Shown: positions 1,628 to 4,733 of the stretch, piece after piece
Layout: each line of letters opens with the position of its first letter
How positions within the stretch are numbered: position 1 is the first letter of the stretch
Virus record (IMG/VR): IMGVR_UViG_3300029448_000526
Coordinates: 1 to 21,317 of that record
Reading direction: 5' to 3' (one strand)
DNA length: 21,317 nucleotides
Origin: a virus
Made by a program: the position numbers and the translations under genes
The notes under the pieces: generated by a model
What the model was told of the DNA's origin: nothing
Database searches by the model: none
The model's input: the letters and a program-made list of their open reading frames with translations, nothing else

Positions 1628-1651
1628 AAAAAAACCCGGCGTTAACCGGGC
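1628..1651 (-). terminator. intrinsic terminator (leftward) closing the candidate ncRNA
   Basis: CCCGG (1635-1639), a six-base loop and CCGGG (1646-1650) form a 5-bp GC stem; on the minus strand it is followed by seven U residues (A run at 1628-1634). Its stem resembles that of the terminator at 1845-1867. Confidence 0.75.
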
Positions 1652-1806
1652 TTAGTCGTTTCACAGATCCGGCCTCGTGAATTAAGATCCGCCATTCAGG
1701 ATCTTACTGGTAAGCTTTGGCGTGGTGGCTGGTTTCCACTTATCCACTTCAGTCCTAACCTATGTATATCTAGGCTTTTATAAGAACGCTGCCGTCATCA
1801 AAGCTT
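1628..1806 (-). ncRNA. candidate structured non-coding RNA, about 179 nt
   Basis: A promoter-terminator cassette with no convincing ORF. The predicted start, about 7 bases after the TATAAT at 1818-1813, falls at 1806, where the RNA begins AAGCUUUG; this pairs perfectly with CAAAGCUU encoded at 1719-1712 (8 bp closing a 79-base domain). Next comes a perfect 8-bp hairpin (TAAGATCC 1683-1690 with GGATCTTA 1699-1706, loop of 8), then the terminator stem and U7. The longest ATG ORFs inside are only 6 and 17 codons. I do not recognise it as tmRNA, 6S RNA or RNase P. Expression is inferred, not shown. Confidence 0.5.
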
Positions 1807-1812
1807 GTATTT

Positions 1813-1842
1813 ATTATACATCAATTCAACACTTAAATGCAA
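1813..1842 (-). promoter_or_regulatory. sigma70-like promoter (GATGTATAAT class) for the candidate ncRNA
   Basis: On the minus strand TTGCAT (1842-1837), an 18-base spacer ending TGTTGAATTGATG, then TATAAT (1818-1813) followed by AAAT. The -10 region and the spacer end match the promoters at 2263 and 3609 and nearly match that at 4834. No start codon with a ribosome site follows. Confidence 0.6.
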
Positions 1843-1844
1843 AT

Positions 1845-1867
1845 AAAAAACCCGGCATAAGCCGGGC
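1845..1867 (-). terminator. intrinsic terminator after the 114-aa gene
   Basis: CCCGGC (1851-1856), loop ATAA, GCCGGG (1861-1866): a perfect 6-bp GC stem, followed on the minus strand by six U residues. It lies about 20 bases after the stop of the leftward gene at 1888-2232. Confidence 0.85.
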
Positions 1868-1887
1868 TTGATTGTTGTTTAGCTTAC

Positions 1888-2764: not shown

Positions 2765-3144
2765 GCGATCACCTCCATTTGAGTTTCACTTAGATTGATG
2801 GTGATATCTCCACCACTTGCGATACGCATCAAAGCTTCTTCTTCAAAGGGCAGATTCTCTGCGAAGTCATCTCTGCTGACTTCGTATGTCCTGTCCCATA
2901 GATCATTATGTTTGTCATGCTTGGGATTGTATCCACTAGCATAGACAACACTGTTTACATTCTTTCTCTCACCATCTTTATTTACATAAGAATTCATGAG
3001 GTAGATGCCTTCATCCTTAACAAGAAAGAAACCTTTTTGATCTGTGGTTTCTTTCTTGTAAGCAATCTTAAACTTATCAGCGTTCAAGGTCTCCTTCGCA
3101 AGAGACCTTAAAGTTTTATTAGATTTGAATTTTAGCTTATGCAT
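2761..3144 (-). CDS. DUF3085-like phage/plasmid protein (127 aa)
   Basis: The central segment FFLVKDEGIYLMNSYV (residues about 38-53), then VVYASGYNPKHD and later DDFAENLP, match my memory of the DUF3085 family, whose members carry a VKD-G-YLM block, a VVYA-G-NP block and a DDF-E-L block. The family occurs on phages, plasmids and integrative elements and has no established function. The N-terminus (MHKLKFKSNKTLRSLAKETL) is basic and helical. The start shares a base with the upstream stop (TAATG), and the stop overlaps the next start. Assignment is from motif recall, not a search. Confidence 0.8.
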   Translation of the reverse strand: MHKLKFKSNKTLRSLAKETLNADKFKIAYKKETTDQKGFFLVKDEGIYLMNSYVNKDGERKNVNSVVYASGYNPKHDKHNDLWDRTYEVSRDDFAENLPFEEEALMRIASGGDITINLSETQMEVIA

Positions 3145-3575
3145 TACGCTACCTCTTCCATCATATCAAGAGTAACAACCTCATCAAGTGGTTTAAAATT
3201 TGTATGAAACCATTGACTCATTCCCTCGTAGGCTTGAGGCGTGCTGATATTATCAGACTGAGCAACATACCATTTTCCATCTTTAAAAAGATAAACAAAC
3301 TCAATCCATAAAGCGTCTAGTTCACGCATGAATAAACGCTCATTAGGATACTCAATAGGTTTGTCTTTGTGCACTCTGCCATCATTGATTAACTCAATGG
3401 TAGGCTGAAGAGAAGACATATAGCCATTGTCTACTAAGTCTCTAGCTTGTTTTTCTCCATTGTAATACTTCAAAAGCATTACTCCGTTATATTCGATATA
3501 ACCATCATAGTGGCAATAACTTGCAATGATTTTATCGTCCTCAGTTGCATATGCAACATTACTTCTTGTTCCCAT
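3144..3575 (-). CDS. MGTRSN-type conserved phage protein (143 aa), function unknown
   Basis: Starts MGTRSNVAYATEDDKIIASYCHYDGYIEYNG, the hallmark opening of a widely spread phage protein type in which MGTRS is followed by a short strand, H-DGY and then a segment like LLKYYN. The middle and C-terminal parts include FVYLFKDGKWYVA, as in related proteins that end in a Y-F-D-GEWY segment. No function is established that I know of. It is the first gene of the unit, 34 bases after the TATAAT at 3609-3614, with the ribosome site AACGGAGAAAAAATTATG. Downstream genes follow in overlapping order. Confidence 0.85.
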   Translation of the reverse strand: MGTRSNVAYATEDDKIIASYCHYDGYIEYNGVMLLKYYNGEKQARDLVDNGYMSSLQPTIELINDGRVHKDKPIEYPNERLFMRELDALWIEFVYLFKDGKWYVAQSDNISTPQAYEGMSQWFHTNFKPLDEVVTLDMMEEVA

Positions 3576-3608
3576 AATTTTTTCTCCGTTTTAGGTTAAC
3601 AATAATTT

Positions 3609-3637
3609 ATTATACATCGATTAACATATATAAACAA
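3609..3637 (-). promoter_or_regulatory. sigma70-like promoter (GATGTATAAT class) of the 3575-2442 unit
   Basis: On the minus strand TTGTTT (3637-3632), a 17-base spacer ending TGTTAATCGATG, and TATAAT (3614-3609) followed by AAAT. This is the best-formed member of the shared promoter class in the window. Confidence 0.75.
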
Positions 3638-3668
3638 ATTAATATTTTGTGCAATCTTTATATGTCAT

Positions 3669-3737
3669 TTGCGAATTGGCCTAGCTTTTGCGATCTTGTG
3701 CGTTCAATTCTTTTGCGATCTTTGGCGTTAGCTTGCG
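3669..3737 (+). repeat. TTGCG word array C in an intergenic island
   Basis: TTGCG or one-mismatch words begin at 3669, 3688, 3698 (GTGCG), 3713, 3723 (TGGCG) and 3733, with 10-base steps inside the groups 3688-3698 and 3713-3733. CTTTTGCGATCTT occurs twice exactly (3685-3697 and 3710-3722). As in island A, it lies between a leftward terminator (3810-3836) and a leftward promoter (3609-3637). No gene is visible. Confidence 0.6.
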
Positions 3738-3759
3738 ATCCTAAGTGTTGGAATTAGGA

Positions 3760-3852: not shown

Positions 3853-4380
3853 CTATTGCCACCTCCCATCGAATAGATCTTGCTCTTTCAGATCGAAGTA
3901 TCCATCTTCGTCTTCAAATTCTACACCCCAATCTAAAGATAGATTATGCTCATCGCAATACTCTTTCATCTTCAAATAGATTTTAGTGGGGCATGACCAA
4001 GCTGTTAAGAAATTGACATGCAGTTGATTCATATCATCTATGTCAATATCAACATCGTAAGCATTCCATTTGGTATCCCAATTGGCTAATCGCCAATCAT
4101 ACCAATTGTCAAAGCCATACTCTTTAATCCATCTTTTGCGAGTGAGTGGATCACTTGGGACAAGATGCCCCATGTCATTTTCCCATTCATCGCCATGGTC
4201 AAAAGGGTCAGCAACATCAAAAGACTTAGCTAAGTCTTTAGGCATTGGTATTATTCCCTCAAAATCAAATGTCCCACTATGAATGGAAAGCATGGTTCTA
4301 AGGCTATGCAATGCAAGTTGCTCTTTCGAGCAACCTGTATTAGTTTCAACTTCAACAAAGTTAGATGTATGATTTGGCAT
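3853..4380 (-). CDS. Api92/YubB-like (DUF1281-type) protein (175 aa)
   Basis: The start at 4380 (MPNHTSNFVEVETNTG) is chosen because the ATG overlaps the previous stop as TAATG and has an AGGA just upstream; the frame reaches to 4392 only by a TTG. The opening MPN----N, the block FEGIIPMPKDL near residue 40, then WYDWRLANWDTKWNAYDVD (about 109-127) and FLTAWSCP (about 140-147) match the pattern I remember for Api92-like/YubB ferredoxin-like-fold proteins of phages and plasmids. Their function is not established. The C-terminus is acidic (EFEDEDGYFD). Second gene of the unit beginning at 4733. Confidence 0.85.
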   Translation of the reverse strand: MPNHTSNFVEVETNTGCSKEQLALHSLRTMLSIHSGTFDFEGIIPMPKDLAKSFDVADPFDHGDEWENDMGHLVPSDPLTRKRWIKEYGFDNWYDWRLANWDTKWNAYDVDIDIDDMNQLHVNFLTAWSCPTKIYLKMKEYCDEHNLSLDWGVEFEDEDGYFDLKEQDLFDGRWQ

Positions 4381-4733
4381 TATCCTACCCAACCTTTAAT
4401 TACTAAAGATGAGTAAGCTTTGACTTCTCTTGGGGCAAAATGCTGCAATCTAATATCTGCCATCACTTTATCGCCTTTGAGAATGCCAATGACTTGCTTT
4501 CTATCTTTAGTGATAGTTGCATCAACCATGTTGACATCTGACCAATGCTTAAAAGTTCTAGGAACTCCAAAGCCTTGATCTTTCATTATGAGATTATTAT
4601 TAATCTCACGCCTTACTTCTGACTTCAACTGTTTCAGAATTTTATCGCACTCCAGAAAGTCTCTGACTTCTTGAGTCCTTGATAGTTTCAACTGATGTTG
4701 GGTCAGTTGGTTTATTTGGTCTAATTTTTTCAT
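4380..4733 (-). CDS. hypothetical protein (117 aa), first leftward gene
   Basis: A 117-residue soluble protein. The N-terminal 50 residues are helical and charged (MKKLDQINQLTQHQLKLSRT, then EVRDFLECDKILKQLKSEVRREI); the C-terminal part is strand-rich (DATITKDRKQVIGILKGDKVMADIRL) and ends SSLVIKGWVG. I do not recognise it. It is the first gene leftward of the central intergenic region, preceded by a long leader of about 95 bases containing an inverted repeat. A 10-codon ORF (MTTDNLEKQL) just upstream ends in an ATGA overlap with this ATG and might act as a leader peptide. Only a weak ribosome site (GGA) is visible. Confidence 0.8.
   Translation of the reverse strand: MKKLDQINQLTQHQLKLSRTQEVRDFLECDKILKQLKSEVRREINNNLIMKDQGFGVPRTFKHWSDVNMVDATITKDRKQVIGILKGDKVMADIRLQHFAPREVKAYSSLVIKGWVG

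Follow-up and report, generated by a model that had tools for sequence, protein, structure and literature searches.

A candidate small RNA gene in a marine phage contig, with a 5′ domain belonging to a family spread over several marine phage lineages

Introduction

To our knowledge, few structured RNA families have been described from marine phages. The pRNA of phage phi29 is a single-copy phage RNA with paired ends, a three-way junction and a conserved fold over a drifting sequence; it is a required part of the packaging motor and is present throughout its phage group. The put RNA of phage HK022 suppresses termination through the zinc-binding domain of the RNA polymerase β′ subunit. It is a short structured phage RNA of about 70 nt made of two stem-loops, and HK022 carries it in two copies, one per early operon (PMC9378689).

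Here we analyse a cassette at positions 1628-1842 of a 21,317-base virus record, IMGVR_UViG_3300029448_000526, the whole of which is called the window below. The domain at the 5′ end of its predicted RNA, together with its relatives, shares with phi29 pRNA the single copy, the paired ends, the three-way junction and a fold kept despite sequence drift, but the family is optional, occurs with unrelated terminases and has no Rfam match. Like put RNA, it is a structured phage RNA able to begin at a transcription start, whereas its closed three-way junction of 80-140 nt differs from the two stem-loops of about 70 nt in put, and it has one copy rather than two and, in the window, its own terminator. 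The cassette resembles the trans-acting small RNAs of phages in its layout as a short intergenic RNA gene that has a promoter and an intrinsic terminator to itself; the family differs from them in being a highly structured three-way junction with a conserved core and a covarying closing stem, found in several marine lineages. Riboswitch and attenuator leaders, including manA and wcaG of marine phages, resemble it in their variable closing stem, conserved junction and variable peripheral hairpin, and a terminator-like end sometimes comes next in both, but in Rfam the family matches neither manA nor wcaG, nor any riboswitch, and the window transcript lacks an ORF.

Results

By family matching, the window's terminase belongs to phrog_38 and its portal to the SU10 type, and the nearest isolate terminases, at about 60% identity, come from marine phages, among them the Pelagibacter phages HTVC027P and HTVC023P. 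A row of small minus-strand genes extends to the left of the terminase. Several of them have the GATGTATAAT promoter element and intrinsic terminators, and the cassette is one unit within this row. Small accessory proteins of the phrog_1987 and phrog_12644 types, of unassigned function, are encoded at 3144-3575 and 3853-4392, and proteins of these types adjoin the RNA domain again in L192 and L253, which are otherwise dissimilar phages. Repeated TTGCG/CGCAA units (TTTTGCGTCC, CGCACGCAAGGCCGCACGCAATAG) abound in the intergenic stretches 1500-1600 and 3660-3740 of the window and 920-1060 of L006, and stretches rich in these units are kept among related contigs. The features that bound the cassette are these:

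1810-1823, minus strand: promoter core TGATGTATAATAAA, with the −10 box TATAAT at 1818-1813, six bases before 1806
1628-1806, minus strand: predicted standalone non-coding RNA of about 175-180 nt, its start placed by the −10 spacing and its end by a terminator scan
1628-1653, minus strand: cassette intrinsic terminator, stem 1653-1632 and U7 1634-1628, from the terminator scan
1848-1869, minus strand: terminator of the upstream gene (1888-2232), a nine-pair stem with a T tail, from the terminator scan

The initial annotation had proposed a sigma70-like promoter of a class common to the neighbouring genes, and this is borne out by the perfect TATAAT and by recurrence of the core at minus-strand 2260-2273 and 3606-3619; the element has 6 matches in all against 1.3 expected, and zero shuffles reach 6. 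The promoter is missing from a generic scan list because its −35 box is weak, and the same stretch is identical in the related contigs L003 and L004. Spacing from TATAAT predicts a start at 1806, the very base with which the long-range stem P1 begins, as that annotation had it. The U7 terminator and the second terminator said to separate the upstream gene were both recovered by the scan, the latter at 1869-1848, and the two are close to direct repeats of one another (25-nt self-match, 88%). The next gene past the cassette terminator has its own TATAAT promoter, and no ORF lies between that terminator and this promoter.

Within these boundaries the predicted RNA divides into a 5′ domain and a 3′ module:

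1712-1806, minus strand: 5′ domain, a three-way junction and RNA-family member; best match in the window of model R1 (see below), full length, E 0.018
1799-1806, minus strand: 5′ strand of P1, AAGCUUUG, pairing with 1712-1719
1712-1719, minus strand: 3′ strand of P1, CAAAGCUU, pairing with 1799-1806
1752-1787, minus strand: P2 (1787-1783 GUUCU with 1756-1752 AGGAC) and P3 (1775-1771 with 1762-1758), with internal loop UAUAAAA
1720-1747, minus strand: P4 (1747-1745 GUG with 1722-1720 CGC) and its conserved large loop, with P5 (UGG/CCA) inside
1658-1711, minus strand: 3′ module, H1 (1706-1699 with 1690-1683) and H2 (1681-1677 with 1664-1660)

P5 is a small hairpin, UGG-AAA-CCA in the window and CGG-AAA-CCG in L025. 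The two exact 8-bp pairings on which the case for a structured RNA was first built (1712-1719 with 1799-1806, and 1683-1690 with 1699-1706) are both present, but taken alone they are weak evidence: 5% of dinucleotide-shuffled versions of the 185-nt body contain at least two like them (P about 0.05). The folding z-score of the whole RNA is −1.9. The evidence from the window by itself is suggestive, short of conclusive. Nor do both stems belong to one fold, since the second lies in the 3′ module, and in L097 and L098 this module stands directly after the promoter, without the 5′ domain, and ends in a U-run. Judged from such comparisons, the H1/H2 part is a separate conserved module, distinct from the 5′ domain. 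The 5′ domain folded by itself has P1 in its minimum-energy structure, in keeping with the proposed closed-end RNA. The unconstrained minimum-energy fold of the full-length RNA omits P1 and beats the family structure by about 5 kcal/mol, so the sequence in which helices form as the RNA is made, or a partner, may play a part.

Comparison with described RNA classes gave no identity. No Rfam 15 family matched the window or 12 related loci at gathering thresholds, and permissive searches returned only matches far below threshold. ARAGORN found no tRNA or tmRNA in the window or 21 related loci, and a degenerate tRNA, suggested by the resemblance of AAAGCUU-ACCA to an acceptor stem, was rejected on the loss of ACCA in L003 (ACUA). 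An antisense RNA to the phage's own genes was likewise set aside, as every stretch complementary to a plausible mRNA of the window is shorter than 11 nt. No description of the family was found in the literature consulted on pelagiphage non-coding RNA or in the 2010 survey of structured RNAs. On these searches the family is new relative to Rfam 15, a comparison that does not extend to the survey's Ocean-VI motif or the older IMES motifs.

Relatives of the adjacent 114-aa gene (1888-2232) yielded contigs with the same cassette. It is almost identical to the window's in L001 and L102; L003 and L004, which have it at the window's locus, match the promoter flank exactly and the 3′ module nearly so, but the interior is strongly diverged. 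In L102 (1-400) the cassette occupies the place of the 114-aa gene, apparently through recombination between similar promoters. The motif in its L003 form matched 75 IMG/VR stretches; 59 members were compared, and model R1 was built from 24 of these with the window lineage excluded. Its best match in the window is 1712-1806 at full length, which at 17 bits and E 0.018 is modest by itself; it scores L003, at the window's locus, at 96 bits and finds members outside its training set, such as L187 (E 2e-26). A second motif, taken from the 5′ side, gained further contigs among the matches listed. Model R2, which includes the window copy, gives that copy 44.7 bits (E 4e-7), and by a hand count of R2 matches from the tables the family comprises at least about 135 distinct marine IMG/VR contigs. 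Six contigs form a subfamily II, with P4 as GGG/CCC and loop AUAGGCAGGAACCAUA. The family motifs, a URUAAAA internal loop and an AURAG...AAC...CCA P4 loop, are found in the window as UAUAAAA and AUAAGUGGAAACCAGCCACCA. One match to the window-type pattern, in L174, lay inside an ORF, was judged a chance hit and was dropped. Taken together, the comparisons support the assignment of the cassette's 5′ domain to an RNA family covering several marine phage lineages. The initial reading as a candidate new phage RNA is thus upheld, except that it had been seen as local and its 5′ domain is that of a widespread family. Searches of isolate phages and plasmids (blastn) and of GTDB genomes (exact patterns) returned zero family members, although distant forms could escape both, and a covariance model found none in HTVC027P, HTVC115P or 023Pt_psg01.

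The family architecture is a three-way junction with a variable P1, P2/P3 with an internal loop, and P4 with a conserved loop, and its helices change in a compensatory manner. At the window's own locus, L003 has a long stem AAGCUUUAUAG/CUAUAAAGCUU of eleven pairs where the window has AAGCUUUG/CAAAGCUU, and in it the base after AAGCUUU and its partner have changed jointly; L001 differs from the window by compensatory changes in P2/P3 (GCUCU/AGAGC, CCCG/CGGG). In the 59 members that we compared, the motif is flanked by arms that vary among lineages yet remain complementary, for example GUAGUUAG/CUAACUAC, GUAGGUUGG/CCAACCUAC, UAGCUAGGUAG/CUACCUAGCUA and UGGCUAG/CUAGCCA. Covariation was tested on a MAFFT alignment of 28 members (A4) that was not fitted to the structure. 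P1, P2, P3 and P4 together gave 84.7% paired cells against 22.6-46.5% when partners were slid by 1-3 columns, and 14 of 20 pairs had changed on both sides. None of 500 shuffles scored as high, but shuffles ignore relatedness, and for this reason the case depends on the slid control and on comparisons at the same locus. The covariance check on related contigs that had been proposed for the cassette thus comes out in favour of the structure. P4, which is GUG/CGC in the window, occurs in relatives as GUA/UGC, CACG/CGUG, CAUG/CAUG, CGCA/UGCG and GUCAU/AUGAC, and the last four emerged in members found by the second motif, which had been chosen without assuming P4. Several kinds of P3 hairpin exist, and a given kind can be combined with differing P4 types, subfamily II included, which suggests module exchange. 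L226 has a second P3-like hairpin, GAAGUCUGAGCUAUUUUAUAUAGAGUGACGAAG, outside the domain and after P1 (minus strand, downstream of 3562).

These changes bear on the suggestion that the segment is not a functional RNA at all and is instead either a small ORF or an intergenic repeat prone to recombination. Its flanks are indeed repeated terminators and promoters, and a short frame could begin in the P4 loop of many members. Compensatory changes in the helices contradict such a reading, as does the placement of the domain between ORFs in nearly all contexts. Moreover, the P4-loop ATG (the ATGAG string) is missing from 13 complete distinct members, the window included, on which ground a peptide gene was rejected and the earlier statement that the cassette has no convincing ORF agrees. 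We regard a non-RNA origin as very improbable.

The domain is a single-copy element: all 24 records of 15-61 kb had one strong match (E <0.001), and so did each of 11 more positive records, 2 of them with weak extra matches (E 0.05-0.1). Most records are fragments, so one copy means one per record. Diverged tandem second copies, the second scoring 25 bits, were seen in L184 (1633-1872) and L213 (50-289). No match was found in 25 other records, among them three sequenced phages and terminase relatives as long as 58 kb, and the domain is absent from most of the terminase relatives examined. Its neighbour genes vary among lineages, with no constant downstream gene, and the phages that carry it have terminases of two families at least, phrog_38 and phrog_979. 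Taking the single copy, the sporadic presence, the differing neighbours and the two or more terminase families together, the pattern as read from these records is that of an accessory gene rather than a repeated cis signal. It also bears on a structural or packaging RNA working like phi29 pRNA, for which the single copy, the sealed 5′ and 3′ ends, the three-way junction and the drift of sequence under a kept structure would all speak. A packaging part should not be optional, however, and the domain is sporadic, being absent from relatives with a related terminase and present with different terminase families; we give this role almost no credence.

How the cassette may be gained and lost can be glimpsed in L002, where the flanks are 96-98% identical to the window's and what is absent is precisely the cassette between the two repeated terminators, an indication that it was gained or lost when such terminators recombined. 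In the close relatives L006 and L008 the 5′ domain is followed by a hairpin and terminator unlike the window's. At the locus of these two, L006 and L007 have a similar promoter and 3′ hairpin to L008, L252 and L255 but differ from them in the allele of the 5′ domain, the P1 arms being wholly dissimilar. A domain that is sporadic and swapped at fixed loci is as would be expected of an accessory trans-acting RNA gene.

Expression signals vary across the family. Of 43 non-redundant members, 13 have a good −10 box that stops 4-10 nt short of P1 (4.2 expected), and such boxes at the P1 base stand in unrelated contexts; many members have further RNA-like modules after the domain, not an ORF. Five or more consecutive U, starting no further than 6 nt past P1, are found in 7 of 37 non-redundant members (0.3 expected, and none at shifted positions); in these P1 may double as a terminator stem, the U-run lying directly past it. 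Several other phages have the domain between genes of the same orientation, at 14-35 nt from a start codon and without an evident promoter of its own, the genes that follow including DNA primase/helicase, and L103 has the succession promoter, domain, 3′ module, U7, ribosome site, ORF. Both the window and L006/L008 have separate terminators and no evident ORF between domain and terminator.

Starting at the predicted first transcript base in about one third of non-redundant members, and often having terminators next, the domain could be thought a processive antiterminator that binds the emerging RNA polymerase as the HK022 put RNAs do, which are likewise short, structured and phage-borne (PMC9378689). 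The put RNAs have two stem-loops, in contrast to the closed three-way junction of the family, and HK022 has one per early operon, against one copy here that is often inside an operon; in the window readthrough would be unneeded, the next gene having its own TATAAT promoter. Antitermination therefore seems improbable to us.

A more serious contender is a cis-acting leader, aptamer-like or an attenuator, in which P1 and the U-run would form a conditional terminator before an ORF and the window copy would have been relocated or have lost its gene. The U-runs after P1, the distance of 14-35 nt from the end of P1 to a start codon in many contexts and the order in L103 all argue for it, and some other phages do show the arrangement of domain, terminator and ORF. 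It does not suit the window, where the terminator is followed by no ORF before the next TATAAT promoter and its gene, nor the many members with RNA-like modules after the domain, and downstream genes that vary among lineages, with one copy per record, are unlike a riboswitch tied to a pathway and to a constant class of gene. Outside the window lineage, a standalone RNA and an attenuating leader would have the same anatomy, and an attenuator role in those phages is possible; as an account of the family, we consider a leader conceivable, if rather unlikely. For the window, the ORF-less transcript and the separate promoter of the next gene favour a trans-acting RNA.

Arrays of RNA-like modules follow the domain in L117, L131, L143, L100 and others. 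One pseudoknot-like module, ACUC...CCUAGAG...GAGUAUAA...UAGG, was found by pattern on 35 locus strands, one copy each, and its loop and partner change and stay complementary (ACCUA/UAGGU, CCCUA/UAGGG, GCCUA/UAGGC). H-type pseudoknot-like modules with an A-rich loop adjoin the domain in L107, L140, L187, L202 and L131, for example ACAG-UU-GCUAG-AC-CUGU-AAAA-CUAGC and GUGUAGG-UU-GGUAG-U-CCUACAC-AAAAAA-CUACC (27 and 24 by pattern); they have no Rfam match at the loci searched. A third module, the hairpin UUGUCCGAG...GGACAA, stands right after the domain in L143, L130, L106 and L196 (29 by pattern).

Discussion

The reading that we prefer, and hold to be probable, is that the cassette is an accessory single-copy phage RNA gene, the product of which would be a discrete RNA of about 175-180 nt acting in trans as a folded binding platform. 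A sigma70-type RNA polymerase would start at about 1806 and stop at 1632-1628. The first 95 nt would form the three-way junction sealed by P1, with the 5′ end tucked into a helix, and P2/P3 with the URUAAAA internal loop would make up, together with the P4 loop, the conserved core. Both the discrete transcription and the action in trans are what we infer from the anatomy of the locus; the most likely partner would be a host or phage protein, and we prefer a binding platform to an antisense RNA or a peptide message.

A bolder form of this proposal, which we offer tentatively and think possible rather than probable, is that the family represents a new class of trans-acting phage RNA machine, single-copy and horizontally exchanged, which would bind and reprogramme a component of the host or of a rival phage and the alleles of which would be exchanged at fixed loci in the manner of an arms race. 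Candidate targets, named with the same reserve as the proposal itself, would be RNA polymerase, a defence protein or a regulator.

The family is common in marine viral metagenomes, and its absence from the sequenced isolate phages that were searched may explain why it was overlooked earlier; its conserved core invites structural work. Because a model that detects it now exists, it can be searched for in the transcriptomes of infected cells. Single copy, accessory distribution and exchange of alleles resemble those of the protein genes for host takeover and counter-defence, with the difference that the predicted product here is an RNA, and phages appear to exchange this small RNA gene among marine lineages.
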